A stretch of DNA of 64,000 bases from a virus: IMG/VR virus record IMGVR_UViG_3300003543_000059, positions 1 through 64,000 of that record. The stretch is one strand, 5' to 3'. The translations under genes were made by a program, and so were the position numbers. Shown in pieces: positions 24,801 through 51,973 of this stretch (position 1 is the first letter of the stretch; every line of letters starts with the position of its first letter). The notes beneath the pieces were generated by a model. The model worked only from the letters and a program-made list of their open reading frames with translations. It was not told the origin of the DNA and searched no databases.

Positions 24801-25583
24801 ATGTTACTATTAGAAATATTCAAAAAAATGAGTCTTACCGAAACATTTGTAATGCTGTTGATGGAAGGTAAGCTTGACAAAATGGCAGAAATGTATTCTG
24901 AAAAGTTGGAAGACCGTTTTGATAATGATAATCGAGTTCCCGCCAATATGAAAGCCAGATTAAGTCAAGGTGAGAACATTGCTGGTAATTTGATAAACCT
25001 ATTTGCCGAAATTGACCCAACTCGTAAAAAAAGCAACGTTCAATGGATGATTATACAATATATTAAAGGTGAACATTTAGAAGATATTGACCATGCTAAA
25101 AGGGCATTAACCACACTTGAAAAATATAAAGGGAAAATAGCAAAGAATCAAATCATGCAATATAAAAGTATTGCTGAATTGAATGCAGAAATTGAAAAGG
25201 TTATTAAAAGTGGTGATGTAAATGATTTAGACAACATTCCACCCGAAGAAGCCACGTATGTTGTGAATTCGCCTAACTTTAAAATCATTATACCTAAAAC
25301 ACATAAAGCTTCTTGTAAGTATGGTGCGTCAGGTTGGTGTACTACTAATGACGATGACCATTATTATAAAAATTATACTGGTCAAGGTGATTTATACATC
25401 ATAATGGTTGGTGGTGGTACAGACCCTAAGAAATATCAATTATCTTATGAAGGCGGGGAATTTAATAACTCTCAAAATAAACCTTTAACACAGCATGATA
25501 TAGATACTTTGTCTAAATTTCCACAGTATAAAGATTTCTTGAACATGTTGATTAAAAAGCATTATTCTAAGTATTTCAAATAA
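24801..25583 (+). CDS. predicted packaged protein with a C-x-Y-G...W-C-T motif
   Basis: From the ATG at 24801 (AAAGGAAACACA before it), 260 residues. Residues 1-23 (M-L-L-L-E-I-F ... L-L-M-E-G) fit a capsid-targeting peptide with cleavage after L-M-E22. Residues about 170-215 carry S-C-K-Y-G-A-S-G-W-C-T-T followed by Y-T-G-Q-G-D-L-Y-I-I-M-V, a motif I recall from several uncharacterised phage proteins. Helical regions fill the rest. A late promoter precedes it. Enzymatic function is unknown; the two conserved Cys residues are notable. Confidence 0.65.
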   Translation: MLLLEIFKKMSLTETFVMLLMEGKLDKMAEMYSEKLEDRFDNDNRVPANMKARLSQGENIAGNLINLFAEIDPTRKKSNVQWMIIQYIKGEHLEDIDHAKRALTTLEKYKGKIAKNQIMQYKSIAELNAEIEKVIKSGDVNDLDNIPPEEATYVVNSPNFKIIIPKTHKASCKYGASGWCTTNDDDHYYKNYTGQGDLYIIMVGGGTDPKKYQLSYEGGEFNNSQNKPLTQHDIDTLSKFPQYKDFLNMLIKKHYSKYFK

Positions 25584-25591
25584 TTAGTACC

Positions 25592-26125
25592 ATGACTTTC
25601 AAACAATATTTGGTTGAAAGTGGTGTACTAGATGACATTTTAGGTAGTTTCGATTCTGATTCTCAAGAGTCGCAGCTACCTAAAGCTCCACCACCTACTA
25701 ACATTCCACCTCGAATTATACAAGCACCCAAACAAGATAAGTTTGTAGATTACTATTATGGTATGGAACTCAAGAAATTGCTACGTGGTGAACCTATTAC
25801 TATAAAAAATATTGCCGAACTTTATGCGTTTGATTATATGGCTCCTAGAGATAGCGTGACGTTAAATTTGTCAGTTGATGACATTGCAAAATATAAAGAA
25901 TATGATATAACCCGTGAACAAGAACCTGAACGTTGGGGTAAATTGTATTCATCAATCAAAGCTAATGGGGTGCAAACCGCTGGCACCATAATTTTAGACC
26001 GGATTCATAATGGCAGTAATGCTGGAAGTGTTGGTGTATTGTTAGGTGAAGGTAATCATCGGTTAGCTATTAGTATAGCGTTGGGCTTAAAAACAATGCC
26101 TATAAATTTCAGCGTCAAAAAGTAA
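25592..26125 (+). CDS. ParB-like protein with capsid-targeting N-terminus
   Basis: A 177-residue protein beginning M-T-F-K-Q-Y-L-V-E9-S, close to the T4 internal-protein signal (M-K-T-Y-Q-E-F-I-A-E), so cleavage after Glu9 is predicted. The C-terminus has G-E-G-N-H-R-L-A-I-S-I-A-L-G-L and M-P-I-N-F, the hallmark of ParB/sulfiredoxin-like domains; an upstream L-Y-S-S-I-K-A-N-G-V stretch fits the same fold. ParB-like proteins bind or nick DNA or hydrolyse nucleotides. The segment 30-45 is Pro-rich. It could be ejected with the DNA; this is inference. Confidence 0.65.
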   Translation: MTFKQYLVESGVLDDILGSFDSDSQESQLPKAPPPTNIPPRIIQAPKQDKFVDYYYGMELKKLLRGEPITIKNIAELYAFDYMAPRDSVTLNLSVDDIAKYKEYDITREQEPERWGKLYSSIKANGVQTAGTIILDRIHNGSNAGSVGVLLGEGNHRLAISIALGLKTMPINFSVKK

Positions 26126-26145
26126 GACCCCATCACAAAATTAAA

Positions 26146-26174
26146 TTTGCAATTCTCTACCGTGTTGGTATAAT
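26146..26174 (+). promoter_or_regulatory. early promoter module 2
   Basis: TTTGCA 26146-26151, 17-base spacer, TGG-TATAAT 26169-26174, then the shared leader AGACTCAACTTAAAC and GGTGAGCATC before the ATG at 26203. Confidence 0.85.
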
Positions 26175-26202
26175 AGACTCAACTTAAACAAAGGTGAGCA
26201 TC

Positions 26203-26520
26203 ATGGCTAAGAAAATATTCAAATTCATCAACACTGCGGGTCATGGTTATCTGGTAGTCCCAAACAAAATCATTAAAAAATATCTTGAACTTCTTATTGA
26301 CACAGATAAGTTATCTGATGTATCATACAGCTATTGGCAAAGAAAGAATTGCTATCTTGAAGAAGATGTTGAAGCTTATAAATTTCTTGAATGGTATGAA
26401 AAAGATGTGGGCGTAAAGCCTTCCATTTCTGAAACATATCAAGAAGATATTCGTAAAACACGTCCAATAAATTGGGTGGTAGGTATCGACCAAGCTGATG
26501 GTTCGCATTGGATTATATAA
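26203..26520 (+). CDS. small early protein of unknown function
   Basis: 105 residues from the ATG at 26203; the frame is open to a GTG at 26194 but the leader-module layout favours the ATG. Mixed helix/strand, aromatic-rich, C-terminus G-S-H-W-I-I. No recognised family. Confidence 0.7.
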   Translation: MAKKIFKFINTAGHGYLVVPNKIIKKYLELLIDTDKLSDVSYSYWQRKNCYLEEDVEAYKFLEWYEKDVGVKPSISETYQEDIRKTRPINWVVGIDQADGSHWII

Positions 26521-26522
26521 CC

Positions 26523-26714
26523 ATGAATGAGTTATTACAATGGGAAATTGATTGGATTAATGCCCACCCAGAACGGTACGAAGGGACAATGCACAGGAAA
26601 GCTGTCATTGGAAATATAACAAAAATGTATCAACTCAGAGAAGTAAAAAAATTTATAAAACATTTTAATGATAATCTTGATATTATACAACAAAATAAAT
26701 ACCAATCAATATAA
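26523..26714 (+). CDS. small protein of unknown function
   Basis: From the ATG two bases after the previous stop, 63 residues; a TTG at 26508 in the same frame is an alternative. Helical and basic at the C-terminus (R-E-V-K-K-F-I-K-H-F). No known motif. Confidence 0.6.
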   Translation: MNELLQWEIDWINAHPERYEGTMHRKAVIGNITKMYQLREVKKFIKHFNDNLDIIQQNKYQSI

Positions 26715-26744
26715 TAGCTATAACTTAACCAAAAAGGTAATGAT

Positions 26745-27032
26745 ATGAGCAATTACACATTTAAAACTTCCGTGGTCACTATACGTGATGTCGAGCATGA
26801 GGTTGTAGTGAATTTTGACTATTCACCACCGGAAGAAGAAAAATTCAATCCACTGGAAGGTATTGGGAATCCATATTCCCCAGCAGAAGTTTCTTTACTC
26901 AGTGTTGACACTGTACTTTTCAATGCTACAACTTTAAATTTTGTTGATGTCCCTGACCAACTACCTAAATCTGAATGGGATTTGTTGGAAATGAGAGCGT
27001 TTGACCATGTGGAAGAAGTGGAAGGTGAATAA
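26745..27032 (+). CDS. small acidic protein of unknown function
   Basis: A 95-residue acidic protein after AAAAGGTAATGAT. Beta-rich beginning (V-V-T-I-R-D-V-E-H-E-V-V-V-N-F) and an acidic C-terminus. It overlaps the next start by one base (TAATG). Confidence 0.65.
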   Translation: MSNYTFKTSVVTIRDVEHEVVVNFDYSPPEEEKFNPLEGIGNPYSPAEVSLLSVDTVLFNATTLNFVDVPDQLPKSEWDLLEMRAFDHVEEVEGE

Positions 27033-30913: not shown

Positions 30914-31534
30914 ATGGATAAGCAAACAACATTTAAAGAGTTTTTAACTGAAAGTTCTTTAACAAGAGTATATCAACATTCTAAACAACATGCTATTGGC
31001 ACTATCACTGCGTTTAGATATGGTTATGAAGACGAAGATGGAGAAACCATACCATATACCAAACGGGAAAATAAACAGCGTAATAAATCTCTGTTAGCAA
31101 AACTATTAAGATATGGATACAGTATTACAGCAGTTAAAGGCACCTACATTGAAAATTACAATTCAGACGATGCTAGGGAAGTTGCTGAAGATGTATATTT
31201 AGTTGTAGATATAGGAGAACGTAACGATTTGAGAAAGAATTTGAAAAAACTTGGTGTTGAATTTGACCAAGATTCAATTTTGTTTGTTCCCAAAGGTGCT
31301 CAACGTGGTGAATTAATTGGTACCAACCATACGGGGTTCCCAGGTTTTGATAAGATAAATTATCTGAAAAATCCTATTTTTGGTAGAAATGGTGAATTCT
31401 ATACAAGAGTTAATGGTAGACCATTTATTCTAAAAGAATCAACATCATTTGTCGAGAAACCAGTGAAAGGTTGGGGTAGAAACTATTCGATTAAATTGAC
31501 CGCAGAAAAATCTTGGCAAGAAATCGAAGTTTGA
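30914..31534 (+). CDS. predicted packaged protein with capsid-targeting N-terminus
   Basis: A 206-residue protein starting M-D-K-Q-T-T-F-K-E-F-L-T-E13-S, which matches the T4 internal-protein signal pattern with cleavage after Glu13. The body contains G-T-I-T-A-F-R near residue 28, N-K-Q-R-N-K-S-L-L-A-K-L, G-T-Y-I-E-N, and D-S-I-L-F-V-P-K-G...L-I-G-T-N-H, a pattern I recall from uncharacterised phage proteins. A late-type GATAAATA precedes it. No enzymatic motif is clear. Confidence 0.65.
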   Translation: MDKQTTFKEFLTESSLTRVYQHSKQHAIGTITAFRYGYEDEDGETIPYTKRENKQRNKSLLAKLLRYGYSITAVKGTYIENYNSDDAREVAEDVYLVVDIGERNDLRKNLKKLGVEFDQDSILFVPKGAQRGELIGTNHTGFPGFDKINYLKNPIFGRNGEFYTRVNGRPFILKESTSFVEKPVKGWGRNYSIKLTAEKSWQEIEV

Positions 31535-33856: not shown

Positions 33857-34234
33857 GTGGCAAGTAACAATCTTAAACGTGCTAATGAGTTAGTCGCTTA
33901 TAAGCCTGAAGACCTCATAGAACTGAGAAAATGTTCTCAAGACCCAATATATTTTATAAAAAAATATTGTAAAATTGAACACCCTCTTCACGGTATTATA
34001 CCGTTTGACCTATATCCATATCAAGAAGATTTAATTAAATCATTTTTAGAAAATCGTTTTACTTTGGCTCTCTGCTCTCGCCAATTGGGGAAATGTTTTT
34101 TAAACACTACTTTTATAAATAGTATTAAGAAGCCAAACGGTTTCAAACGTTTAGTGCTTAAATTATTTTATAAGAGAGAATATGATGCGATATTTAGAAA
34201 ACCGAAGACTGAAAAGACCTCTGAACACTATTAA
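33857..34234 (+). CDS. terminase large subunit, N-terminal fragment with split-intein N-part
   Basis: 125 residues from a GTG after CAAGGATTTTAAT. Residues 1-79 are the start of a gp17-like terminase, with an adenine-binding-like F-D-L-Y-P-Y-Q-E-D and ending exactly inside Walker A at C-S-R-Q-L-G-K79. Cys80 begins an intein N-part (C-F-L-N-T-T-F-I-N-S). T4 gp17 reads S-R-Q-L-G-K-T-T, and the missing T-T is found after the matching intein C-part at 35645. The two ORFs must be joined by protein trans-splicing to give a working packaging motor. The 3' end overlaps the endonuclease ORF by 53 bases. Confidence 0.85.
   Translation: MASNNLKRANELVAYKPEDLIELRKCSQDPIYFIKKYCKIEHPLHGIIPFDLYPYQEDLIKSFLENRFTLALCSRQLGKCFLNTTFINSIKKPNGFKRLVLKLFYKREYDAIFRKPKTEKTSEHY
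34094..34231 (+). other. split intein, N-terminal part (46 residues)
   Basis: Begins with Cys80 of gene 33857 directly after the terminase Walker A Lys79. Only the first splicing block is present; blocks B, F and G are in the next terminase ORF. Such a short N-part is like the atypically split inteins described in phage terminases. Confidence 0.8.
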
Positions 34235-35135
34235 AATTGAAAATTTAAAATATATCAACATACCCGAAGATTATATTTTATATCGTGATGGTTCTAAATT
34301 GAATTATATTATCAAAGATGATGATGTAGATAAGATTATAAAGGATGAACGCAAAGCTTATCAACGTAAACTGAAAACTTCAGAAGAATTTCTGTTAACT
34401 AAGGCTTTTATTAAGAATACTAACGGAAATATAATTTCTGATAAACAAAGAGTTGAAATTGAACGAGTTATGTATGCTATGTGGAAATATAATGAAATGT
34501 TGAGAATAGAAACTCTAGTATTATTGCTTAATAATGGAATAGAAACAAAATTGTTAGAACGTATTAGATTATTGGGTAATTTGAAGGCTACTGATTCAAG
34601 ATTTAACAAAATATTGTTATATGGGATAAAAAAAGGATTAGAAGAATTTAGAATTAACAAATCTGAAAGAGTGAAAGGTTCTAACAATCCAGCTTATCAA
34701 CATGGCGGGAAATTAAGTCCATATAGCAAAAAATTTATCAAATATGATAGTTCTGATGAAAGTGAAAATATCAGAAAATCTATGTTCGATAAAAATATAA
34801 AGAACAGGAATGATAATCAAAATAACACATGTAGATTAGATTATTACACATCAAGAGGTCGTTCGGAAGAAGATGCTGTGTTGGCTTTGAAGAAACGTCA
34901 AACTACATTTTCAAAACAAAAATGTATTGACAAATATGGTGATGTAAAAGGTTTTAACGTTTGGAAGAAACGTCAAAATAAATGGCAAGGCACATTAACA
35001 TCTAAATCTCAAGAAGAAATTGATATTATTAACAAAAAGAAAAGAAGCATTGGTGGTTGCTCTAAAATAGCTACTGAGTTATTTGGGTCTTTAGGGTATG
35101 GTTTTGCGAGATATGATGGTAATGGTGGCGAATAA
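34182..35135 (+). CDS. homing endonuclease-like ORF inside the terminase break
   Basis: 317 residues lying between the two terminase fragments. It has N-N-P-A-Y-Q-H-G-G-K-L-S-P near residue 165, and two R-Q-x-x-F/K-W modules: L-K-K-R-Q-T-T-F-S-K-Q-K-C-I-D-K-Y-G and V-W-K-K-R-Q-N-K-W. These occur in phage homing enzymes of the Vsr-like type. The catalytic region seen in the endonucleases at 8092 and 38257 is missing: the protein ends soon after S-K-I-A-T-E-L-F. It is therefore probably truncated, or relies on another nuclease. The true start may be downstream of the overlap. Confidence 0.6.
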   Translation: MMRYLENRRLKRPLNTIKIENLKYINIPEDYILYRDGSKLNYIIKDDDVDKIIKDERKAYQRKLKTSEEFLLTKAFIKNTNGNIISDKQRVEIERVMYAMWKYNEMLRIETLVLLLNNGIETKLLERIRLLGNLKATDSRFNKILLYGIKKGLEEFRINKSERVKGSNNPAYQHGGKLSPYSKKFIKYDSSDESENIRKSMFDKNIKNRNDNQNNTCRLDYYTSRGRSEEDAVLALKKRQTTFSKQKCIDKYGDVKGFNVWKKRQNKWQGTLTSKSQEEIDIINKKKRSIGGCSKIATELFGSLGYGFARYDGNGGE

Positions 35136-35170
35136 GAATAAAATAATAACAGAATGTAAGGATTTTATAA

Positions 35171-35644
35171 ATGAATGGGATAATGAACTTTTCGCATCTT
35201 AAAGAGAAAATATTAAAATGGTGTTTAAGTGAAGAAGCTGTTATTTATGGTGAACTATATAAACAATACCAAACTAACAAAGTAGAACGATACCAACAAA
35301 ATAAACTTAAATTTGTTGAAGAATCTGAACCGAATGATTTGTTTATTAAAACACCTTCAGGAATATCACCAATAAAACGATTATTGAAAACTGTTGAATA
35401 TGATGTATATCGTATTACTTTGGAAAACGAATTATTCTTAGAATGCGCTGATGAACATTTATTGATAGGCGAATATGGTGATGCTATATTCGCTAAAGAT
35501 AGCAAAGGAACTACATTAAGAACGATTAAAGGACCATCTGCTGTTGTAAGCGTAGAACCATTGAATCGTTCTGAATCTATGTACGATATAGAGATTGATG
35601 GTGATGACCATACATATCATACTAATGGAATATTATCACATAAT
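35171..35644 (+). other. split intein, C-terminal part (158 residues)
   Basis: Block B is seen as E-C-A-D-E-H-L-L near residue 93, block F as Y-D-I-E-I-D-G-D-D-H-T-Y near 138-149, and block G ends S-H-N158, followed by Thr159 as the splicing nucleophile of the extein. No endonuclease motif is inside. Confidence 0.8.
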
Positions 35645-38257
35645 ACAACTTGCGCTGCTGCTTTCTTCTTGTGGTACGCAACATTTGAAGAACATAAGAC
35701 TGTTCTTATCGTATCAAACAAAGAATCAAACGCTACAGAATTCATTCATCGTCTTCAGGTTATGTATGAATACTTACCTAAATGGTTGAAGGCTGGTGTT
35801 GATGGTGAATGGAATAAAAAATCTGTTGGTTTTGATAATGGTTGTCGTGTTATATCAAGAGCGACTTCAGACTCATCAGCAAGGGGTTTATCATTATCTA
35901 TCGTATTTGCAGACGAACTTGCATTCGTTAGGGATAACATTCAAGATGAATTTTGGGCTGCTCTATCACCAACATTATCATGCGTTACGGGTGATACACT
36001 GGTATTGACCAAAAATGGCTATGAAAAAATAGAAGATTTTCATAAAGGTAAAGGTGTTGGTGATTATTTTGAAATAGATGGTGTAGAAGTGTACGGTAAA
36101 GAAGGTATTGAACCATTATCGCATGGTTATGTATCACCAGAAAGCGATACTTTAATTATAGAAACACAACGCGGTTTTATGATAGAGGTTACTCATAATC
36201 ATCCATTATACGCGTTAACAGAAAACCCTGAAATGGTTAAAGCTAAAAATTTAACTACAGCGAACTATTTAAGAATTGATTATGGGATGAATCATTTTGG
36301 AAAAAAATCTTTAGATAGTGACATCGCTTATATGTTAGGTGGATATATAGCCGAGGGGTGGTCATCACATTTTAAAAATGCTAAAGGTGAACGGGTTAAT
36401 TCTGCCATATATATAGCAAACCTTGACAGTGATTTTCGTGAAGTGTTTTATCGAAATGGTTTTAGTGACGACCTTAATCAATCACACAAAATTAGAAAAT
36501 TTGGTGTAGATGTGTGCAGGTTTTGGGAAAACGAATATGGTATAAATTTTACTCAAAAATGTTATGACAAAGAAATACCACATTATATCATGCAATCTAA
36601 TAGTAAGACTATTGGCATGTTTCTTAGGGGGTTATATGATGGTGATGGTAGTATTACTGTAAATCGAGGGATTAATCTTACATCTACTAGTAGAAAATTA
36701 ATTCAGCAAGTTCAAATTTTATTGATGAATTTTGGCATTTTAACTACGCTGGTTAAAAATGATGCTGAAAAAATAATGATACGTGAGCGTGAAAGCTGTA
36801 GACTTTTGCCACAAGGAAAACCTATTCAATCATTAAGAGATAGTTGGGGGTTGAACATATCACGTTCAAACGCTGGTTTATTCCAGCGGTGTGTAGGTTT
36901 TAATATAAAGTATAAAGGGGATAAATTAGAAGAATGTATTAAAAAATATCCTCAAGATGATTACAAACAGAAAGTCATCCCTTTTGACATTATAAAAAAT
37001 GTTATATCTAACATAGTAGAATCAAGCGGAAAAACAAAAAAATGGTTTAGAGATAAAGGGTGTCGTTTAGATAAACTTTTTAATAAATCCACAGAAAGAA
37101 CGTGTACACTTAGATGGTTGGAAGTTTTTTACAAAGCTGTTAGACATATGGATTGTGTAGCTCAATATCACAATATATTCAATGAATTGTTAGGATATGA
37201 TTGTATATGGGATAAAATAAAAACTATAACTCCATCAACTAATAAGACGTATGATTTCACGGTACCAAAAACCCACACTTTTTTACAAAACGGTATTTTA
37301 GGTAGCAATACGGGTGGTTCGTGTATCGTGGCATCAACACCTAATGGTGACATGAACTTATTCGCTCAATTAGCCAGAGCATCAGAAGCAAAAACTAACG
37401 AATTCGTATTTAAAAAATATATCTGGGAAGATGTACCAGAACGTGATGAAGCTTGGAAGAAGTCTGAAATCATGCGGATTGGTGAAGAGAAATTTTTACA
37501 AGAACATTTGTGCCACTTCTTATCTAGTGAAGCCATGCTTATTAGTAGCATGGTTCTATCCACTATTAAACCCAAACAACACGTTCGGGAACTTAAAGAA
37601 TTCAAATTGTGGGATTCTTTTTCTCCTGAAAAATCTTACATTGTTGGTGTTGACCCTAGCACCGGAATTGATAATGACTTTTCGGTTATCGAGGTCTTTG
37701 AATTTCCTACTATGATTCAAGTAGGGGAATTTCGTTCAAACACTTGCAACACTACACAATTATACCAAGCTTTAAAAGGTATTCTTATCATGATGGAACG
37801 TGTTGGGTGCCAGATATTTTACAGTTCGGAAAATAATGGCATCGGTGAAGGGTTGTTGGTGTGTATTGAAAATGATGAAAATGCACCGGAACATGCTGAG
37901 TTCGTAACGCAAGCGAATTCTAAACGTGAAGGTTTTGCTACGACCAACAAGAGCAAAATTAAAGCTTGTATTAAGTTGCGTGAAATGTTTGAATCTGGTA
38001 AGATTGAAATTAAATCGGAGCATTTGTTATTTGAGCTTAAAAATTTCATTAGAACCAAAGCATCATATGAGGCTCAGCCTGGTGCTACAGATGATTGTAT
38101 ATCCGCAGTGCTGATAGTTATTAGAATTTTAGAAGAAATAATATTGTATGATGATAGAGCTTATGCTATGATGGAAGAAAGTTTAGGAGAAGATTATTTC
38201 TCTAATGATGTATATGACGAGAATGGTGTTGATGCGGCAATGCCAATAGTTTTTTAA
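35171..38257 (+). CDS. terminase large subunit, C-terminal fragment with two inteins
   Basis: 1028 residues. Residues 1-158 are the C-part of the split intein, ending H-T-N-G-I-L-S-H-N158. The terminase resumes at T159-T-C-A-A-A, completing Walker A. The ATPase body follows, with the Walker B region I-V-F-A-D-E-L-A-F near 246-254. A second intein occupies 271-713 (Cys271 to Asn713), then T-G-G-S-C-I-V-A-S-T-P-N-G, the coupling motif. The nuclease domain has V-G-V-D-P-S-T-G and a final A-T-D-D-C-I-S-A acidic motif. After both splicing events the motor would have about 506 residues from this ORF plus 79 from the first, near T4 gp17 length (610). Confidence 0.9.
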   Translation: MNGIMNFSHLKEKILKWCLSEEAVIYGELYKQYQTNKVERYQQNKLKFVEESEPNDLFIKTPSGISPIKRLLKTVEYDVYRITLENELFLECADEHLLIGEYGDAIFAKDSKGTTLRTIKGPSAVVSVEPLNRSESMYDIEIDGDDHTYHTNGILSHNTTCAAAFFLWYATFEEHKTVLIVSNKESNATEFIHRLQVMYEYLPKWLKAGVDGEWNKKSVGFDNGCRVISRATSDSSARGLSLSIVFADELAFVRDNIQDEFWAALSPTLSCVTGDTLVLTKNGYEKIEDFHKGKGVGDYFEIDGVEVYGKEGIEPLSHGYVSPESDTLIIETQRGFMIEVTHNHPLYALTENPEMVKAKNLTTANYLRIDYGMNHFGKKSLDSDIAYMLGGYIAEGWSSHFKNAKGERVNSAIYIANLDSDFREVFYRNGFSDDLNQSHKIRKFGVDVCRFWENEYGINFTQKCYDKEIPHYIMQSNSKTIGMFLRGLYDGDGSITVNRGINLTSTSRKLIQQVQILLMNFGILTTLVKNDAEKIMIRERESCRLLPQGKPIQSLRDSWGLNISRSNAGLFQRCVGFNIKYKGDKLEECIKKYPQDDYKQKVIPFDIIKNVISNIVESSGKTKKWFRDKGCRLDKLFNKSTERTCTLRWLEVFYKAVRHMDCVAQYHNIFNELLGYDCIWDKIKTITPSTNKTYDFTVPKTHTFLQNGILGSNTGGSCIVASTPNGDMNLFAQLARASEAKTNEFVFKKYIWEDVPERDEAWKKSEIMRIGEEKFLQEHLCHFLSSEAMLISSMVLSTIKPKQHVRELKEFKLWDSFSPEKSYIVGVDPSTGIDNDFSVIEVFEFPTMIQVGEFRSNTCNTTQLYQALKGILIMMERVGCQIFYSSENNGIGEGLLVCIENDENAPEHAEFVTQANSKREGFATTNKSKIKACIKLREMFESGKIEIKSEHLLFELKNFIRTKASYEAQPGATDDCISAVLIVIRILEEIILYDDRAYAMMEESLGEDYFSNDVYDENGVDAAMPIVF
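35981..37309 (+). other. second terminase intein with LAGLIDADG endonuclease
   Basis: 443 residues, in frame. It starts C-V-T-G-D-T-L-V and ends N-G-I-L-G-S-N before Thr. Block B is T-H-N-H-P-L-Y-A. Two LAGLIDADG-type motifs are present: M-L-G-G-Y-I-A-E-G around 36330-36357 and F-L-R-G-L-Y-D-G-D-G around 36619-36649. It interrupts the terminase just before the coupling motif, a highly conserved site. Confidence 0.88.
38192..38211 (+). repeat. 20-bp direct repeat, left copy (in terminase 3' end)
   Basis: GATTATTTCTCTAATGATGT, encoding D-Y-F-S-N-D-V near the terminase C-terminus. Identical to 39947-39966, just after the endonuclease gene. Confidence 0.9.
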
Positions 38258-40025: not shown

Positions 40026-40409
40026 ATGAAACTTAAAGATATTACTGAAGCCGTTTCCAAAAAAGAACCAATCTTTACCAAAGACGAATTAGCATATTTG
40101 AAATCTGAACTAGCTGGAGAAGGTTTTTCCGGTAAAGCTGTGGTTTCAACTAAACCAACCATCCGAAATTCTAAAAGAAAAAAAGGGGATTACCTGTGGA
40201 ATGGTGAAAAGTCTTCCATAGTATATAAACGTATAATGGATTTAGATACGGGCAAAATCATTAAAAGGTCTTATACTTCTTCTTCGGCTTATGGTATTGA
40301 AGATGCTTCTATTCTGGCAGTTGAACAATGGAGGAATGGGGAAGGAATGAAATTATTCAAGTATGAACAATTACCATCGGATGTTCGTGCAAAATTTGAT
40401 ATGATGTAA
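40026..40409 (+). CDS. predicted packaged protein with capsid-targeting N-terminus
   Basis: 127 residues from the ATG at 40026, chosen for its GAGGAAAAAC ribosome binding site and the late promoter upstream; longer in-frame starts lie before the promoter. It begins M-K-L-K-D-I-T-E8-A, fitting cleavage after I-T-E. The body is basic and has a Y-T-S-S-S-A-Y-G-I-E-D-A-S-I-L-A-V-E-Q-W-R segment. Function unknown. Confidence 0.6.
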   Translation: MKLKDITEAVSKKEPIFTKDELAYLKSELAGEGFSGKAVVSTKPTIRNSKRKKGDYLWNGEKSSIVYKRIMDLDTGKIIKRSYTSSSAYGIEDASILAVEQWRNGEGMKLFKYEQLPSDVRAKFDMM

Positions 40410-44561: not shown

Positions 44562-46268
44562 ATGAAGTTACTAGAAATCTTACATCAATATGAGCATTAT
44601 ATTGATGTCTTGTTAGAAGCATCTGACTACAATATGATGTTCCCTGACCAATTCGTTGAAAAAGTTTCATCTGTATTACCTAAATACAATCGCACTTTTT
44701 TCAACGCGTCAATAGCAAAAGCCAAGAAAACTCTTAAACGTGAAGACCGTATCGTATGGTATTTGCGTTTATTGCGTCTAGAAATTGTTTTCCAATATTA
44801 TCATAAAACACCGAAGACAGAAGAAACGAAAGCTATTCTTGATACTGAATTAAAGAAGTACAACAAGAAGTCCAGACAAAATCTTACGTGGGACAAATTA
44901 AAAGCATTTTTTCCTATTAATCCTATACTTACTGCATTAGAACATTATCTTAGTTTAAAAATTAATGACATCAATCGTTATGTTTTTAAATATCAAAGTC
45001 CAGCAGAAATATCACAAGAATTTATGGAACTTGAAGAAGAATACAATGATTCTATGGGGGATGAAGACCGTTTAATTCCAGAAAATGATGAAATCGTTTT
45101 CTTGGATTGTGGTGGTGGTTTTAAATGGTTTAATCTTGAAAGAGCTTCATGTAGCGCAGAAGCTAAAGCTATGGGTCATTGTGGTAATTCGCCTTCAGGG
45201 TATGACAGCAACCAAACTATATTATCATTGAGGCAGTTTGTCAAGAAAGGTGACCAAGGCTATTGGAAACCTATTGCCACTTTTATTTATCACATTAACG
45301 AAAAATCGTTAGGTGAAATGAAAGGTAAGAACAACACTAAGCCAGTCAAACGTTATCACCCACAAATTTTAAAACTCTTATATGATGATAGAATTCAAGC
45401 TATACATGGTGGTGGCTATTTGCCTGAAGAAAATTTCAGTGTAAATGATTTAGATGAAGCTGTAAGGGATAAGCTGTTAGAAGCTAAACCACGTTTAATG
45501 TCATTCATGGATAGAATTGATAAGGACGGTATCACCGAAGAAATTTTGAAAGAGTTGGAAAATGCTGGTGCCACTATTGACTATAAAAATAAAGAATATC
45601 CTTACGTTTTAGAAACATTTGATAATCTTGGTGAAATGGTAGATGATATAGGCAATGACACAGCACAATGGATAATGAACGTGTTGGAAGGAAATGTGCA
45701 TGTTGACTTTGATGAAGGATTAGACGACAAACAAATTTTTGACGACAATCTATCACATCAACAAGAAGAAATCATACGAGAATATATTAGAACGAATCAC
45801 CAAGAATTATATGATGAAGCTGAAGAAGCAAATGGCGGTGATGACCCAGATTGGTACGAACTTTCTGAACAAATATCTGGTGATGATTGGTTTGCGAATT
45901 GGCTCGAAGAATTTAAGAGATTGCCTAGTGATGCGCAAAGAGCTGGTACCGAAAATGAAATGTCAAAAGCTTTAACGAGCAGTTTAGAATCGCTTGAACA
46001 TGAATTTGATATTGGAGTTTTTCAGCATGGCGATAATGTTTGGGATTCTAAATACACGGCTAACCTAAGAAAATACGAATTGAAAGAATTTTCTGGTTTT
46101 GGTTATGATATTACTTCAGCAGAAGATTTTATCGAAGCTTTAGGTGAACATATGGCAGAAGAGAATATGGAACTGAAAGTTGCCGCGCCTTATTATGGTT
46201 TTGATATTGATTCATTTAACCAAGAAGCGAAACAACTACTTGAACAATTGGAAGAGAAAAACAAATGA
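44562..46268 (+). CDS. large predicted packaged protein with PcfJ-like C...GHC motif
   Basis: A 568-residue protein starting M-K-L-L-E-I-L ... D-V-L-L-E19-A, which fits a capsid-targeting peptide cut after Glu19. Residues about 190-225 contain A-S-C-S-A-E-A-K-A-M-G-H-C-G-N, then I-L-S-L-R-Q, reminiscent of a motif in PcfJ-like and other mobile-element proteins; a G-E-M-K-G-K-N-N stretch follows. The C-terminal 250 residues are very acidic. An N-terminal helical region (40-160) is shared with the next gene. Enzymatic role unknown. Confidence 0.65.
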   Translation: MKLLEILHQYEHYIDVLLEASDYNMMFPDQFVEKVSSVLPKYNRTFFNASIAKAKKTLKREDRIVWYLRLLRLEIVFQYYHKTPKTEETKAILDTELKKYNKKSRQNLTWDKLKAFFPINPILTALEHYLSLKINDINRYVFKYQSPAEISQEFMELEEEYNDSMGDEDRLIPENDEIVFLDCGGGFKWFNLERASCSAEAKAMGHCGNSPSGYDSNQTILSLRQFVKKGDQGYWKPIATFIYHINEKSLGEMKGKNNTKPVKRYHPQILKLLYDDRIQAIHGGGYLPEENFSVNDLDEAVRDKLLEAKPRLMSFMDRIDKDGITEEILKELENAGATIDYKNKEYPYVLETFDNLGEMVDDIGNDTAQWIMNVLEGNVHVDFDEGLDDKQIFDDNLSHQQEEIIREYIRTNHQELYDEAEEANGGDDPDWYELSEQISGDDWFANWLEEFKRLPSDAQRAGTENEMSKALTSSLESLEHEFDIGVFQHGDNVWDSKYTANLRKYELKEFSGFGYDITSAEDFIEALGEHMAEENMELKVAAPYYGFDIDSFNQEAKQLLEQLEEKNK

Positions 46269-46756
46269 AACTTAAAGAAATTCTAGAATATTACGAAAGA
46301 TACATTGACATGCTCTTAGAAGCTGTCAATTATAACCAGATGTTTTCACCTACCTTAATTCAACATTTAGGTGCTGATGCGAATGAGATAAAAACCTATA
46401 TAGCTAAAGTTAAGAGCACACTGAAACGAGAAGATAGAATCGTGTGGTTCTTACGTTTGTTCAAAATGAATTTAATCGGTAAAGCTTTAGATAAAAACAA
46501 GACCCCAGAATTTAGAGCATATGCTGATAAGGAATTACAGAAGTATAATTCTAAAGCTGGTACACATGCCACATATTCAGGGTTGAAGCGTATGCCTTCA
46601 TTGACACGCGCATTAGCAAAGCTGGAACATTATTACAGCATGGGAATTAACAAAGTTGATACCCACGTTTTAAAATATCAGCCCATCGAAGAAATTATTT
46701 CTCAATTTGAAAAATGGGAAAATGAACATCTAGCCAAAAATTCTGGTGATGAATGA
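46265..46756 (+). CDS. predicted packaged protein, short paralogue of 44562
   Basis: 163 residues, ATGA-coupled to 44562. The first 150 residues parallel those of its neighbour: M-K-L-K-E-I-L ... D-M-L-L-E19-A, then L-K-R-E-D-R-I-V-W-F-L-R-L and L-E-H-Y-Y-S-M-G-I-N. It lacks the Cys/His domain, so it is a duplicated targeting-plus-helical module standing alone. Predicted to enter the head and be cut after Glu19. Confidence 0.7.
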   Translation: MKLKEILEYYERYIDMLLEAVNYNQMFSPTLIQHLGADANEIKTYIAKVKSTLKREDRIVWFLRLFKMNLIGKALDKNKTPEFRAYADKELQKYNSKAGTHATYSGLKRMPSLTRALAKLEHYYSMGINKVDTHVLKYQPIEEIISQFEKWENEHLAKNSGDE

Positions 46757-47400
46757 AATTAAATGAAATTAAACTCTTAAACGAAACACCATTACCCGAC
46801 GATTGGGATGGTGACATATACAATGAACGCATATCATTTGCTAAACGTATAAGATATGCTCAAGAACGTGCAAAAAAGCTTGGTACAGGCTCTTCACGCG
46901 TCGCTTTTGAAATACCCTATAAAGGACGACTAACAGTTCTTAAAATCGCTAAGAATCGCAAGGGGATGGCTCAGAATGAAGTTGAAGCGAACTTGATGTC
47001 TGATTATTATCTTATGAGCATGGGTATCGTTATTCCTATGATTGATTATGATGAACGTAATGCAATGCCAACATGGATTCATACAGAGAAAGCTGAAAAA
47101 ATGACACTTCCTAAGTTCAGAAAATTTACAGGTGGTGGGGATTTTAGAGACTTAGTAAATTACGCATTAGCACTAACAGGTAATGCTGGTAGGTACCAAA
47201 GCGTTGATTTGAAAAATCCTCCGGTTGATGTTGAATTAGAATTTGTGCAAGATTTCACTGAAGCTGTTGGTAACTATCAAGGTTCAATAGAATTTTTAGA
47301 TGCAGCACAAAAAGCAAATTGGGGAATATACAAAGGTGACCCAGTTATGATTGACATTGGACTAAGTTCTGATGTATACAAAGAACATTACAGTAGGTAA
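46753..47400 (+). CDS. kinase-like protein, predicted packaged
   Basis: 215 residues in an ATGA overlap. The start, M-K-L-N-E-I-K-L-L-N-E11-T, fits the targeting pattern. A kinase-like N-lobe follows: G44-T-G46-S-S-R-V-A-F-E (glycine loop), V-L-K64-I-A (Lys), and E76/E78 in Q-N-E-V-E-A. Near the end, I-D201-I-G-L resembles the metal-binding D-x-G, but a canonical H-R-D loop is not obvious. Similar small kinase-like proteins occur in other phages. It may phosphorylate a host or virion target, or be a pseudokinase. Confidence 0.6.
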   Translation: MKLNEIKLLNETPLPDDWDGDIYNERISFAKRIRYAQERAKKLGTGSSRVAFEIPYKGRLTVLKIAKNRKGMAQNEVEANLMSDYYLMSMGIVIPMIDYDERNAMPTWIHTEKAEKMTLPKFRKFTGGGDFRDLVNYALALTGNAGRYQSVDLKNPPVDVELEFVQDFTEAVGNYQGSIEFLDAAQKANWGIYKGDPVMIDIGLSSDVYKEHYSR

Positions 47401-47404: not shown

Positions 47405-47653
47405 ATGGAAACTAAGCAAACATTCAAAGAATTTTTAGAAGAACGAGCGTATGAAGGTAATAATTATCGTGAAACCTTTAAGGTTGATGGAAAAATGTTG
47501 AAGTTCTACCGTTTAGACCGTGATAAAGGTCAAGCTGCTTACATAAATGGTGATAAGATTTACATTATGGATGGTGATAAAGTAGTCTCTACCACCACCA
47601 AAGATAAATTTGACGATAAAATTGCGGACGAACCTAGACGCTTTACGCCTTAA
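47405..47653 (+). CDS. small predicted packaged protein
   Basis: 82 residues from the ATG at 47405, four bases after the previous stop. Begins M-E-T-K-Q-T-F-K-E-F-L-E-E13, nearly the same signal as gene 30914. The rest is a small, charged beta-rich domain with I-Y-I-M-D-G-D-K. Convergent with the amidoligase-like gene, overlapping by four bases. Confidence 0.65.
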   Translation: METKQTFKEFLEERAYEGNNYRETFKVDGKMLKFYRLDRDKGQAAYINGDKIYIMDGDKVVSTTTKDKFDDKIADEPRRFTP

Positions 47654-49563
47654 TCAGAAAATAACTTATAACGCTCTTTGTCGGATTTAGCCATACCATG
47701 AATTCGTTTCATTGGGTGTTTAGCTTTAAACACTTCGTTCCCGTTGTTATCTTGGGTGTATTGAACCACCATTTTTTTATCTACATCAGGTCTGTTGGTG
47801 GTTAGTGCGTAATATACATCACCCGTTTTAGTGTCGGTTAGATATAGATTGCCTCGTTTATTCAAAGGTTTTTCACGGTAAGCTGGTGCTTCAGTTGAAT
47901 GTTTTTCTATAAGTCTTAGTAACTTCGTATCATATTCACGTTTTTTATAGTTAGGTTCCATGCCTAGTTTCAACAAATAGCAGAATCTTAATATGAAGGT
48001 TTTAATAAGCCCAAATTTTTTATGGTAATTTTCACCACCTAAATATCTGAATTCAATACGACCGTCTTCATTAAAAGCGTTCATACGATTGATACCATTA
48101 GACTTCTGATTAACTGGCATCAATGCTGTTATGATTTCCTTTTTCAATTTGGTGTAATCAGAAGCAGATAACCCATAATATTTAGCTTGTAATCCACTAG
48201 CAGCGTTTTGTATCCATTGCGTCATGGAATCAGCCCAACCACCATCTAAACGGTCTTCAAAGTGTTTTAGAATCAAACCTTCTTCCATAAACAACATCAT
48301 CTTGAACACGTCAAGCTTATCAAGATTGAAATTTTTATAACTTAGGTTGACATGGAACCCAGTTTCTCCTGCGCCTCTACTTATAGTCGCACCGTTATCA
48401 TCAATATAATCAAAAACCTGTTCCATAGATTCTAATCCGGCTTGTAATGAAAGTTTAGGTGATGTTATTTCTACCCCACCCTCGTCTAATGAAAGCGACC
48501 CATCTTCAACAATGTTCCATTCATTTTCATCACTACCATTAACGTCTAGGGTATACGGAAAATCGTTGTGATTGAATTTGTTGGCGATTAAGCCTTCAAA
48601 ATTATCATCACCATAAGTTCCATTATGTAGACTATCCAGCAATTCTTCGTTAGCTGAATCATATTCGTTTTCGTCGAATGCTTCATCGTACCCCATAAGC
48701 TTAATAAACGATTCTTCTTGGTCGGTTAAAGCTTCAAAGATGGCACCTTCTATGTGTTTCTTAATATCTGTTTTGGTTTCCTTTTTAAAGAAATATTCAA
48801 TAGTATCAATGATTTCTGAAGGAACTGTTGGTATTTTAACACCTTCTTTATCTAAAAATTTGTTGTGTGCCATATAGTCACTGAATCTTTGAACTTCAAG
48901 AGGTACATCATCTTTACTAATCTTGTAGTAGCTTTCACCTTTCACGTTAGTTTCTAGTGAGGTAACTTCTTGATATTTTTTAACTAATTTGAATTCTGGT
49001 TTATTTGCGTTTTGAAATCCATTAAGGTGCAACCCATAAGGTTCCAACTGTTTCATCGTCCATTCTCTAGCTTGATGATTGATAGCTGTTCTATCATCAC
49101 TTTCACTTTCTAATTTTGTGATTATATTTTGGCGTTTATTTGATATATCGTGGTACTTAGCAAGTGTTAATGGTTTATATGATGTGCCATTGGTTTTATT
49201 GAACTCTTCTACAGTTTTAATCCACTCTTTTTCCTTATTTTTAACAGCTTTCTTGCCAGCTTTAGCGCGTTGTTCATCAAACTGTTCTTGGTATGGCGAT
49301 AAATCTATCGTTGTTTGAAGGTTAACTATTTTTTTGACAAAGGCTTCGTATATTTCTGTAGCTTCTTCACTATAGTGTTTATAGTCTTTATGTTCATACA
49401 TATCAGAAAAATCATCATTACTATCACCAAACCCAGCTAAGTTGTTATCATAGTATTCATATTCCAGACCTAAGAAAAATTTAGTATCATTCATTATTTC
49501 TCTATAAGAAGAAGCGTGAACCTTTTCGGTGATAAGATATTGTTTGAAAGTAAGAGATGCCAT
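47650..49563 (-). CDS. amidoligase-like protein, predicted packaged (long paralogue)
   Basis: 637 residues starting M-A-S-L-T-F-K-Q-Y-L-I-T-E13-K. The enzyme-like region is spread: L-G-L-E34-Y-E36-Y near the start, then after a 280-residue acidic/helical insert G-G-V-E-I-T-S-P, G-F-H-V-N-L-S-Y, F-K-M-M-L-F-M-E-E-G, and G-R-I-E-F-R-Y-L-G-G. This order (E-x-E, E-x-x-S-P, G-x-H-x-N, E-F-R) fits glutamine-synthetase-like amidoligases, which join amino groups to carboxylates using ATP. It is a diverged paralogue of 50339-51973. A GATAAATA late motif lies upstream. Substrate unknown. Confidence 0.65.
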   Translation of the reverse strand: MASLTFKQYLITEKVHASSYREIMNDTKFFLGLEYEYYDNNLAGFGDSNDDFSDMYEHKDYKHYSEEATEIYEAFVKKIVNLQTTIDLSPYQEQFDEQRAKAGKKAVKNKEKEWIKTVEEFNKTNGTSYKPLTLAKYHDISNKRQNIITKLESESDDRTAINHQAREWTMKQLEPYGLHLNGFQNANKPEFKLVKKYQEVTSLETNVKGESYYKISKDDVPLEVQRFSDYMAHNKFLDKEGVKIPTVPSEIIDTIEYFFKKETKTDIKKHIEGAIFEALTDQEESFIKLMGYDEAFDENEYDSANEELLDSLHNGTYGDDNFEGLIANKFNHNDFPYTLDVNGSDENEWNIVEDGSLSLDEGGVEITSPKLSLQAGLESMEQVFDYIDDNGATISRGAGETGFHVNLSYKNFNLDKLDVFKMMLFMEEGLILKHFEDRLDGGWADSMTQWIQNAASGLQAKYYGLSASDYTKLKKEIITALMPVNQKSNGINRMNAFNEDGRIEFRYLGGENYHKKFGLIKTFILRFCYLLKLGMEPNYKKREYDTKLLRLIEKHSTEAPAYREKPLNKRGNLYLTDTKTGDVYYALTTNRPDVDKKMVVQYTQDNNGNEVFKAKHPMKRIHGMAKSDKERYKLFSD

Positions 49564-49582
49564 AGTATGTTATCCGTGTTGA

Positions 49583-49612: not shown

Positions 49613-49635
49613 AGCACCAACACATTAGTAACTTT

Positions 49636-49643
49636 GATAAATA
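49636..49643 (+). promoter_or_regulatory. late promoter variant GATAAATA
   Basis: Plus-strand GATAAATA three bases before the ATG of the cyclotransferase-like gene. Transcripts from it would be almost leaderless or start inside the gene, so its use is doubtful. Confidence 0.3.
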
Positions 49644-49646
49644 GAT

Positions 49647-50108
49647 ATGAAAAAAACATTAGTTTTTGTTTACGGAAGTTTAAAGAAAGGGTATAGTAAC
49701 CACGAGGTTCTGGACGATTCGATATTTGTTGGTGACCATGTTACTGATGAAAAATACACCATGTTAAGCATGGGAGCGTTCCCTTGTGTTGATGATGGTG
49801 GCACTACACCTATACACGGTGAAGTGTATGCGGTTACTGATGAAACACTGAACAATCTTGATATACTTGAAGGTTGTCCACGGTTTTTTAAACGTAAAAT
49901 GTTAACAAGTACTTACGGTGAACTCGTGATGTATGTTATTAACAAGGAATGTTTAGTAGGCGAAGAATACCCTGTCATTAAAAGTGGTATATGGGAAAAC
50001 CCTTGGGAAATGGAAGAAGCATATGATATTGACCAAGAAGTTGAATCGTGGGTAGAATATGATGACGATGAAGACAATTATAAATGTCAACATCGTAGTG
50101 AATATTAA
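49647..50108 (+). CDS. gamma-glutamylcyclotransferase-like protein (AIG2/GGCT fold)
   Basis: A 153-residue protein with the family start V-F-V-Y9-G-S-L-K-K-G, then G-E59-V-Y-A-V and L-D-I-L-E-G at 71-76. Members release 5-oxoproline from gamma-glutamyl amines or peptides. The C-terminal 45 residues are acidic and extra. It sits between two amidoligase-like genes; amidoligase and cyclotransferase genes are known to neighbour each other in bacteria. Together they suggest making and undoing of a gamma-glutamyl amide link, but the substrate is unknown. Confidence 0.8.
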   Translation: MKKTLVFVYGSLKKGYSNHEVLDDSIFVGDHVTDEKYTMLSMGAFPCVDDGGTTPIHGEVYAVTDETLNNLDILEGCPRFFKRKMLTSTYGELVMYVINKECLVGEEYPVIKSGIWENPWEMEEAYDIDQEVESWVEYDDDEDNYKCQHRSEY

Positions 50109-50125
50109 CTATTAGAGGTGATGTT

Positions 50126-50320
50126 GTGAATAGACCTAAAGTTGGACAAGTATTTATTAAGAAAGGGTTAGAACGCGAAATAGTAGACGTTCATTTTCGA
50201 GGGCATAGTAAACCTAATGATTACGATGTAGTTTGGCGAAGACCAAACACACACAAAAAATATACAATTTGGTTGCCGTATTGGACAAATTGGGTAGCCA
50301 GTGCAGAACTGGTAGAATAA
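50126..50320 (+). CDS. small basic protein of unknown function
   Basis: 64 residues from a GTG after GAGGTGATGTT; the nearby ATG at 50121 is out of frame. SH3-like beta protein (V-G-Q-V-F-I-K-K-G; Y-D-V-V-W-R-R-P) with a Trp-rich end. It lies between the cyclotransferase-like and amidoligase-like genes and may be co-expressed with them. Confidence 0.6.
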   Translation: MNRPKVGQVFIKKGLEREIVDVHFRGHSKPNDYDVVWRRPNTHKKYTIWLPYWTNWVASAELVE

Positions 50321-50338
50321 CATGGCAAAGGACATGGA

Positions 50339-51973
50339 ATGTTGGGAACATTTAAAGATTATTTAATCACAGAAAAAGTAAGTCAATCAGAATACGAAGA
50401 GATACTGGGTTCAGCTAAATATCGTGTTGGTATGGAGTTCGAATACATTGACAATGAGGTTCTAAGAGCCACTGCTGGTGAATTCGAATTCGATATGTTG
50501 TGGGAAGGTTACAAGAAATTTATCCACAATGTTGAAAAAGCACAAAAAGAAGCTGAAGAAATTCGTGAAAAATGGCTAGAAGAACAACGTACCATCATTC
50601 AAAAACGTATCACTGAATTGCAAGGTGAAGACGGTGATGAAGATGACATAGATACTCTTCAAGATGCTATGAAAGGTGACGGTGACTTCTACGAACTTGA
50701 TGGTTTTGAAGGGTTAGACGATTTGTCTCATGAATTTGATTTATTCGAAGAAGAACCATATTTCGATGTACCAGAAATCCCAGATGCTTTAATAGATTTT
50801 TGGGCTGAAGTTGTCACCGATGATAAAACACACGCTCAACCAGACGAAAAAGATATTCGCGAAGCTATTACGCAAGCAGTGCATGAAGCATTGTTTGACC
50901 CCGAATCTGATTTTGACGCTGACATCATGCCTAAAGCTTATAACATGGTGGATTTTCAACACTTTGACCCTACACAGGTTCAACCATCCTTAGAATCAAT
51001 TGATTCCGGCTTTAACTTTGAAGAATTTCCATATAAAAACTATGTTATCGGTGGGTATAATGAGAACCAACACATTGTTAACAAATGGCGAATAGAAACC
51101 GATGAATCATTAGAGCCTAGAGCTGGTGGTATAGAAGTTGTTTCGCCTATTACAGACTTACGCGATACGTTAGTTATCGTTAAACAGATGTTTGACTTTA
51201 TTAATAGCAATGGTTATACGAATAAATCGTGTGGGTTACATGCTAACATGAGTTTTAAAGGTTATGATTTGAAAGAGTTAGATGTGTTCAAGATGATGTT
51301 GTTCATGGAAGAAGGATTCATTTGGCAACATTTCCCTGACCGTAATGTAGCATCAGAATATCTGAGATTTACATATCAAGTTATTGCTGGAAACACCAAC
51401 ATTAGCAGTGATTTGTTAAAGGATTTCAATAAAGCTGATATAGCTAAAGCTAAAACCATTATCAAAAATTCTCAAAACAATATATTGAAATGGATGCAAG
51501 TAGCCCCTAATAAGGTTAATGGTATCAATGTATTATCACAACAAGGTTCTGCTGCTAAAAAGTTCAGAGATGGTAGGATTGAGTTTAGATATATTGGTGG
51601 TAAGGATTATTCTAAAAAATACAAACAAGTTAGGCTACAGCTTTTAAGATATGCGTTTTTATTGAGGCTGGGAATGGACCCCAACTTCAAAAAGAAAGAA
51701 TATATCACTAAAGTAGCAAGAATGATTGAAAATTATGCTGAACATTTTCCTAAGAATGTTAGAGCTGAACGTTTAGCTGACTTGGAACTGTTAGTTACTG
51801 ATGTTGTGAATAATGATGTTTATATGACCAGTAAAGACGATGAAAGCGGAACGATTATGCAATATTCTACGGATGCGGTAGATAAGAAGAAGCTTATAGG
51901 TACGATTACTCCTGATATGCTGAAGGTTCGTATGAGAACGCAGCCAGAAAGATACCAGATGTATCGAGGATAA
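50339..51973 (+). CDS. amidoligase-like protein, predicted packaged (short paralogue)
   Basis: 544 residues starting M-L-G-T-F-K-D-Y-L-I-T-E12-K. Motifs in order: V-G-M-E33-F-E35-Y; an acidic/helical middle (90-250); G-G-I-E-V-V-S-P; C-G-L-H-A-N-M-S-F-K; F-K-M-M-L-F-M-E-E-G; and G-R-I-E-F-R-Y-I-G-G. The last three blocks are almost the same as in 47650-49563, so the two genes are paralogues now in opposite orientation around the cyclotransferase-like gene. Predicted to be carried in the head and act in the host or in the capsid; activity is unproven. Confidence 0.68.
   Translation: MLGTFKDYLITEKVSQSEYEEILGSAKYRVGMEFEYIDNEVLRATAGEFEFDMLWEGYKKFIHNVEKAQKEAEEIREKWLEEQRTIIQKRITELQGEDGDEDDIDTLQDAMKGDGDFYELDGFEGLDDLSHEFDLFEEEPYFDVPEIPDALIDFWAEVVTDDKTHAQPDEKDIREAITQAVHEALFDPESDFDADIMPKAYNMVDFQHFDPTQVQPSLESIDSGFNFEEFPYKNYVIGGYNENQHIVNKWRIETDESLEPRAGGIEVVSPITDLRDTLVIVKQMFDFINSNGYTNKSCGLHANMSFKGYDLKELDVFKMMLFMEEGFIWQHFPDRNVASEYLRFTYQVIAGNTNISSDLLKDFNKADIAKAKTIIKNSQNNILKWMQVAPNKVNGINVLSQQGSAAKKFRDGRIEFRYIGGKDYSKKYKQVRLQLLRYAFLLRLGMDPNFKKKEYITKVARMIENYAEHFPKNVRAERLADLELLVTDVVNNDVYMTSKDDESGTIMQYSTDAVDKKKLIGTITPDMLKVRMRTQPERYQMYRG

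Follow-up and report, generated by a model that had tools for sequence, protein, structure and literature searches.

Capsid-targeting sequences in T4 and other phages

The capsid-targeting sequence of phage T4 has been known for decades, mainly from a few small proteins of the T-even phages. The T4 internal proteins (IPs) that carry it are injected anti-restriction proteins (PMC9026906, PMC12373910), and mutation of the IPIII sequence has linked positions 4 and 7 to targeting and positions 8 and 10 to processing (PMC9026906). In T4 Alt, cleavage follows ITE-6 (PMC5694885). Removal of a propeptide after x-x-E by a gp21-related protease is also a feature common to the giant phages of the phiKZ/SPN3US type, whose propeptides are mostly long, often more than 100 residues, and have another motif (PMC5694885).

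Virion-associated enzymes have been described for the cyanophage S-CREM2, among them a SAM hydrolase, an APH/ChoK-like kinase, a cytidylyltransferase and a Cas9-like protein, and the N-termini of these resemble the type A tag described below. The available part of that study suggests enzyme encapsulation and makes no mention of a targeting tag. Enzymes that destroy SAM are likewise known from T3 (SAMase) and Svi3-3 (SAM lyase) and, to our knowledge, have not been described as packaged.

The tagged genes and their late promoters

The window analysed here, a stretch of 64 kb, is part of a 77.9-kb contig of the T4 superfamily whose tail sheath is nearest to that of the jumbo phage XacN1; the sheath of RAS14 is also close. 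About 11 genes, approximately one tenth of those in the contig, start with a short tag of one of two kinds, named types A and B. The original prediction had attributed T4-like N-termini to ten of them; all ten carry one of the two tags, with open reading frames and the starts given there, and 23936, which had been missed, belongs to the set as well. The genes, named by their first coding position where a strand is not given, are listed with the predicted cut marked by a slash:

23936..24391, plus strand: type B, MLLHE/IFDRPL, Alt-like; DUF6934-like body
24801..25583, plus strand: type B/A, counted as B, MLLLEIFKKMSLTETFVMLLME/G; body with a C-x-Y-G...W-C-T motif
25592..26125, plus strand: type A, MTFKQYLVE/S; ParB/Srx-like GEGNHRLA motif, recognised by eye
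30914..31534, plus strand: type A, MDKQTTFKEFLTE/S; SAM lyase family
40026..40409, plus strand: type B, MKLKDITE/A; body of no recognised family, found by motif and late promoter
44562..46268, plus strand: type B, MKLLEILHQYEHYIDVLLE/A; body PcfJ-like by eye
46265..46756, plus strand: type B, MKLKEILEYYERYIDMLLE/A; paralogous to the N-terminal region of 44562
46753..47400, plus strand: type B, MKLNEIKLLNE/T; protein-kinase-like fold
47405..47653, plus strand: type A, METKQTFKEFLEE/R; small protein of 82 aa, found by motif scan
47650..49563, minus strand: type A, MASLTFKQYLITE/K; Amidoligase_2 (PF12224, E=1.4e-10)
50339..51973, plus strand: type A, MLGTFKDYLITE/K; Amidoligase_2 (PF12224, E=7e-5)

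The bodies behind the tags had been considered unrelated. They include a kinase-like protein, two amidoligases and an enzyme that is likely to destroy SAM. Most are indeed unrelated, the exceptions being two pairs of paralogues, 49563 minus with 50339 (38% identical over their first 83 aa) and 44562 with 46265 (42% over 169 aa). Relatives or paralogues back 8 of the 11 proteins.

Several of the genes had also been said to possess late promoters, and these were located 31-34 nt or so upstream of five. The T4-type late promoter TATAAATA, which occurs in its exact form 26 times where 13.6 occurrences are expected, lies 31-34 nt upstream of 24801, 40026 and 44562 (at 24767, 39995 and 44530, respectively), and GATAAATA is found approximately 33 nt upstream of 30914 and 49563 minus, as it is upstream of the TerL gene. 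Late expression of these five genes is thus predicted from their upstream sequences.

Two tags with T4 counterparts

In its form T-F-K-x-F/Y-L-x-E, the type A tag matches the capsid-targeting sequence of T4 IPII and IPIII at the targeting and cleavage residues, with an aromatic residue at position 4, Phe or Tyr at 7, Leu or Ile at 8 and Glu at 10, so that the proposed likeness to T4 internal proteins holds at the residues that mutation has shown to be important (PMC9026906). The spacing is exact in 30914, 47405 and 25592, the last of which is one residue shorter ahead of the aromatic position, while 49563 minus and 50339 have one additional residue preceding the tag Glu. When open reading frames of at least 60 aa in all six frames of the whole contig were scanned with [TSA][FYW][KQNRE].[FYL][LIVM].{1,2}E, there were five matches, all of them 1-5 residues past a start codon; in a similar scan of T4, the motif was close to an ATG in 2 of 23 occurrences, which are IPII and IPIII only. 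With a looser expression and automatic start calling, the enrichment was not significant in several relatives, including T4.

The type B tag, M-K/L-L-x-E-I/L followed by LxE, resembles instead the propeptides of T4 gp24 (MAKINELLRE/STT) and Alt (MELITE/LFD), to which it corresponds in register and in predicted cut. The expression M[KRL][LIVMF].[EDN][ILVMF] is matched by the starts of 6 of 105 predicted genes and by none of 343 internal Met positions (P=1.5e-4), and shuffling of the N-termini reached six such starts in 0 of 2,000 trials. Both signals are united in 24801 (MLLLEIF...TFVMLLME), whose start position is conserved in one relative (L119).

The set resembles T4 IPII and IPIII (MKTYQEFIAE) in the type A residues, tag length, cut-site Glu and, as far as promoters can tell, late expression. 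Unlike the T4 IPs, the tagged proteins number at least 11 in part of one genome, several have large enzyme-like bodies of up to 637 aa, and no T4 IP body is recognisable among them. Type B, which in T4 is found on one vertex protein and one ADP-ribosyltransferase, here precedes roughly half of the cargo and can change places with type A. Capsid-targeted, injected proteins were already known from T4; new are the size of the set, its enzyme content, the use of two tags that can replace each other, and a rule by which such proteins can be detected.

Conservation of the predicted cleavage site

In the kinase-like family of 46753, the tag is variable among 13 sampled orthologues, and types A and B are exchanged on the same body (MKISELLSE, MKVKELLLE, MKMQEILFE, MKDLSFKNYLIE, MKFADFLLTE and others), whereas the predicted cleavage Glu, E11, is invariant and L9 is present in 90%. 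A conserved [LI]-x-E junction is also seen as an aligned LxE or IxE column in the families of 24801 (three relatives) and of the amidoligases, where the relatives of 50339 in SCTP-2 have INE/G and IQE/G at the junction. The SAM lyases have E/SS, their variable tags preceding a conserved ESSL[STA]R, and gp31 of SCTP-2, a relative of 44562 in its body, begins MRLNNLFE/S. In Alishewanella phage Slicko01, the predicted Glu is followed by APLPDDWD in the kinase and by SSLSR in the SAM lyase. By itself, L/I-x-E was uninformative as a predictor of virion proteins, with no enrichment in PA5oct.

Relatives in virions and the protease

Purified virions of S-CREM2 or PA5oct contain tag-bearing relatives of three of the proteins (30914, 24801 and 23936), as detected by MS. 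In S-CREM2, the SAM lyase, the relative of 30914, is present in virions with 19 peptides, virion ORFs 6, 12, 13, 14, 136 and 154 have A-like N-termini, and the tag is carried by five virion proteins and by at most one of approximately 169 others (Fisher P=0.0006-0.003 for the five strict cases). In PA5oct, the virion proteins include EST35_0205, a relative of 24801, and, by ESI-MS/MS, the product of 242891 minus, MHLFELFDQIEKY, which is related in its body to 23936. A strict type B expression, fixed after the virion N-termini had been seen, matches 7 of 93 PA5oct virion proteins and 3 of 352 others (P=0.001); type A was not enriched there (1 of 93 and 2 of 352). In the published MS data consulted, N-termini cut at the predicted Glu do not appear.

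All complete relatives that were searched encode a gp21-type S77 protease, as do 6 of 7 IMG/VR contigs related to this one. The partial contig itself yielded neither the protease nor gp20-gp23, since it does not include the head genes. The view that the set is packaged in the head gains support from the relatives in virions, the invariant cleavage Glu and the S77 protease of the relatives.

Proposed function and alternative explanations

Very probably, the tagged proteins are internal components of the head in a T4-superfamily phage and are packaged, cut and ejected with the DNA. The tags, their excess at gene starts, the conserved cleavage Glu, the late promoters, and the protease and virion proteins of relatives are well-supported observations behind this reading; from them we infer that the proteins are packaged and cleaved in this phage and then ejected, and which targets they may have. 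After late expression, a propeptide of 5-22 residues would dock each protein on the prohead core, a gp21-type protease would cleave after the Glu of [LIF]-x-E and free the body inside the head, and the bodies, by analogy with T4, may be delivered into the host along with the DNA and act ahead of phage gene expression.

It is unlikely that the tags serve only to hold scaffold or structural parts on the prohead core while the head is assembled, with no delivery of effectors. LxE propeptides do occur in T4 gp24, gp67, gp21 and gp22, and in a PA5oct gene between the portal and prohead protease genes; however, several bodies here belong to enzyme families (SAM lyase, amidoligase) or have a kinase fold, and are patchy in occurrence and away from the head gene cluster, and the T4 counterparts Alt and IPI-III are ejected (PMC9026906, PMC12373910). 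Much less probable still is an origin of the shared N-termini by duplication or shuffling of 5' segments, or by a preference in translation start, with no role in packaging. The two paralogue pairs and the frequency of lysine-rich starts would fit such an origin, but it is the residues Phe, Phe/Tyr, Leu/Ile and Glu that are kept, with no conservation at the codon or RBS level, L-x-E alone is retained when A and B are exchanged on one body, and tagged proteins are over-represented among published virion proteins. Chance resemblance, with just one or two true internal proteins, can practically be dismissed in view of the motif statistics in the contig and T4 and the relatives or paralogues of 8 of the 11 proteins, even though the motif is short, M-K-L-x-E-I is of low complexity, and the motif is the sole support for 25592 and 47405 and is joined for 40026 by the promoter.

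Probable enzymes among the tagged proteins

Among the enzyme domains originally proposed, the amidoligase reading is upheld by Pfam, both proteins passing the cut-off for PF12224 (50339 barely), and the kinase-like protein by its fold, while the ParB-like assignment of 25592 comes down to one motif seen by eye; this protein had no Pfam match, and relatives were looked for and not found. Pfam families were likewise not matched by the bodies of 24801, 40026, 44562, 46265 and 46753, the match of 23936 to PF22028 was weak (E=7e-5, below the cut-off), and a back-translated peptide search of IMG/VR retrieved no relatives of 25592, 30914, 44562 or 50339.

A protein kinase fold is predicted for 46753 from its AlphaFold model (pLDDT 79), for which the best Foldseek matches are protein kinases (E ~1e-4, low TM of 0.3-0.4). 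Invariant in its family are G44, G46, K64, E78, D201 and G203, corresponding to a Gly-rich loop, Lys, Glu and D-x-G. The kinase-like protein and the amidoligases may modify host proteins or metabolites.

The membership of 30914 in the SAM lyase family (PF23780, E=1.8e-9) had been overlooked. The protein retains the active site, with conserved catalytic G-x-Y, E and Q-[DE]: G76, Y78, E92 and Q119 are invariant and D or E comes next in 6 of 6 sequences. Paired by eye from motif order, their counterparts in Svi3-3 are Gly56, Tyr58, Glu69, Gln104 and Glu105. A PDB sequence search with 30914 gave no significant match; judged by these residues, it is likely a SAM lyase. Its catalytic residues are shared with T3 SAMase and the Svi3-3 lyases, from which it differs in having a capsid tag. 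The likeliest single function is that it would lower host SAM and thereby keep SAM-dependent restriction or BREX from acting when the DNA enters.

The tag as a delivery signal

The logic of the T4 tag reaches a contig with relatives among the jumbo phages, and is consistent with the virion proteomes published for two other phages. It yields a sequence rule that predicts injected proteins across T4-superfamily genomes, makes packaged SAM lyases a likely common means of countering restriction, and suggests that natural tags could be used to load phage heads with proteins. We lean slightly towards the broader view that the two interchangeable, removable tags constitute an open delivery system of the T4 superfamily, in which 5-22 residues route almost any domain and the arsenals are pre-emptive, SAM lyases disarming SAM-dependent restriction at DNA entry. 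In IMG/VR, the exact tag MKTFKEF stands ahead of 41 unrelated bodies, and Glu occupies position 10 in 26 of the 41 clusters (P=3e-25). One candidate (L177), with choline-binding repeats behind MKTFKEFFEK and no Glu at position 10, is probably a chance match. The commonest cargo after this tag is a SAM lyase.

N-terminal tags at gene starts

The ten genes described in the original prediction as sharing T4-like N-termini are all present with these N-termini, and a further tagged gene, 23936, was absent from that list. The genes, named by their start or end coordinate in the window, carry two types of tag:

Type A, T-F-K-x-F/Y-L-x-E: 25592, 30914, 47405, 49563 (minus strand), 50339
Type B, M-K/L-L-x-E-I/L followed by LxE: 23936, 24801, 40026, 44562, 46265, 46753

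Type A occurs five times across the six frames, each time at most five residues from a start, and in a similar scan of T4 the only near-ATG matches are IPII and IPIII, the two known proteins. Type B is found at the start of 6 of 105 predicted genes and at none of 343 internal methionines; its count at gene starts was never equalled when N-termini were shuffled. The bodies, thought to be unrelated, mostly are, but two pairs within the set are paralogous, which leaves about nine independent cases. Late promoters, expected for several of the genes, were found as TATAAATA or GATAAATA 31-34 nt upstream of five of them, and the TerL gene is likewise preceded by one of this kind.

In T4, type B has parallels in Alt (MELITE/LFD, the slash marking the known or predicted cut after Glu) and in gp24 (MAKINELLRE/STT), which is cleaved after residue 10. 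The gp24 site agrees with the propeptide length of 10-20 residues given in the literature, where Alt is cleaved after ITE-6 (PMC5694885). In the IPIII tag, MKTYQEFIAE, residues 4 and 7 are required for targeting and 8 and 10 for processing (PMC9026906), and the residues that type A conserves, Phe, Phe/Tyr, Leu and Glu, correspond to these four. The uncharacterised, 54-aa T4 protein gp61.1 (NC_000866 18966-19130, minus) begins with a type-A tag, MKTFKEFIKE/D, and because of this start may be an additional T4 internal protein.

Predicted cut site and prohead protease

The kinase-like protein 46753 was compared in a set of 13 orthologues, composed of the window's own, those of phages XacN1 and Slicko01, and ten IMG/VR loci (two identical). 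Their bodies are alignable from [ATVM]P[LV]P..WD on, ahead of which stand MKLNEIKLLNE, MKQVRLSQFLSE, MKIYNLYSTLLE, MKISELLSE, MKVKELLLE, MKMQEILFE, MKVKDILKE, MKDLSFKNYLIE, MKELSFKNYLIE, MKFADFLLTE, MKLDNLYRTLIQE and MRAFEFLTEQTLDE; A and B tags interchange, the cut-site Glu is invariant, and Leu at Glu-2 is 90% conserved. In the SAM-lyase family the tags also vary and are followed by a conserved ESSL[STA]R. LLME/G, LLLE/D and TLYE/D share one alignment column in the 24801 family, as do ITE/K, INE/G and IQE/G in the amidoligases.

An S77 prohead protease is encoded by all eight annotated relatives first searched (including SCTP-2 and XacN1), by T4, and by six of seven related IMG/VR contigs. 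The 77,882-bp virus record has no end repeats, and its first 64 kb form the window. Genes for a T4-type tail and for recombination are present, together with a large terminase that has an intein-like insertion. The most similar tail sheaths are found in Xanthomonas phage XacN1 (43%) and the Stenotrophomonas phages CM1/RAS14, followed by PA5oct, CBB and RaK2. No gp21-type protease is present in the 77,882-bp contig and no gp20-gp23 were seen among its ORFs, so the head genes are placed outside it.

By eye, intein-like insertions lie in terminase and DNA polymerase genes (window 33857-39948; sequence L001 10346-14086), with homing-endonuclease-like ORFs nearby and others at window 8092-9936 (minus) and L001 4803-6446; a sulfotransferase-like ORF adjoins tail-fibre genes at L001 554-1216. 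Paralogous MNLYK/MNLYR-type repeat proteins (FPKGE-A-IA...YA repeats) flank the tagged region (window 3907-5198 minus, 23200-24759 plus), and similar genes adjoin the 24801 relative in L119.

Tagged proteins in virions and proposed mechanism

In purified virions of cyanophage S-CREM2, 52 proteins were detected (PMC10665884). A motif scan predating the reading of its virion table picked ORF6 (SAM lyase), ORF154 and two short, spurious-looking ORFs, and the table lists both ORF6 and ORF154. By inspection, virion proteins ORF14 (kinase), ORF13 and ORF136 have A-like N-terminal tags, and the virion-detected ORF12 (OR473000 7704-10313, minus; annotated as a Cas9 nuclease) has a type-A tag, RFASFMAE/A, about twenty residues from its start. 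Strict tags mark five virion proteins versus 0-1 of about 169 other genes (P=0.0006-0.003), with a regex loosened in part once the virion list was known. In PA5oct, whose virion proteins include relatives of 24801 and 23936, strict type B marks 7 of 93 ESI-MS/MS-labelled proteins versus 3 of 352 others (P=0.001), with a regex fixed only once virion N-termini were known; type A alone is not enriched in the same comparison.

The tagged genes would be transcribed late, as the promoters support, and by homology the tag would dock each protein on the prohead core; gp21 would cut after Glu, a step for which the comparative evidence is strong. The cleaved proteins would be retained in the head, as the relatives found in virions suggest, and by analogy to the T4 internal proteins and Alt would be ejected, possibly acting on host defences or metabolism ahead of phage gene expression, for which the SAM lyase is the best-founded case. 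T4 is already known for such a tagged internal-protein system; new in this variant are the scale, the enzyme content and the interchange of two tags, of which a literature search of open-access text found no description.

Cargo

The enzyme-like domains anticipated for the set include an amidoligase and a kinase-like domain, both of which were recovered, and a SAM-lyase family protein is present besides:

30914: SAM-lyase family (PF23780); G-x-Y, E and Q-[DE], which active SAM lyases conserve (PMC7877911), occur in that order
49563 (minus) and 50339: Amidoligase_2
46753: kinase fold according to a Foldseek comparison of its AlphaFold model (E about 1e-4, TM low), in which tag residues 1-11 are of low confidence (below 50)

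Across IMG/VR, the pattern MKTFKEF retrieved at least 83 proteins in at least 41 sequence clusters; among the matches listed, the largest cluster (25) is SAM lyase (PF23780, 2.4e-17), one is ART-PolyVal (1e-23), and position 10, outside the pattern, is majority Glu in 26 of 41.

In relatives, a compact cargo island of five clustered type-A-tagged genes, including one for a kinase-like protein, lies at 2046-6544 of L112 (IMG/VR contig G006, 82 kb). Other tagged proteins seen by eye are GNAT-like (L116), 2H-phosphoesterase-like (L118) and ADP-ribosyltransferase-like (FHATL and YHGSP motifs; Slicko01 OQ508956 86.5-97.6 kb, minus, including a cluster at 87-92 kb), the last with N-termini of the form MKIxxLYxxLLxE.
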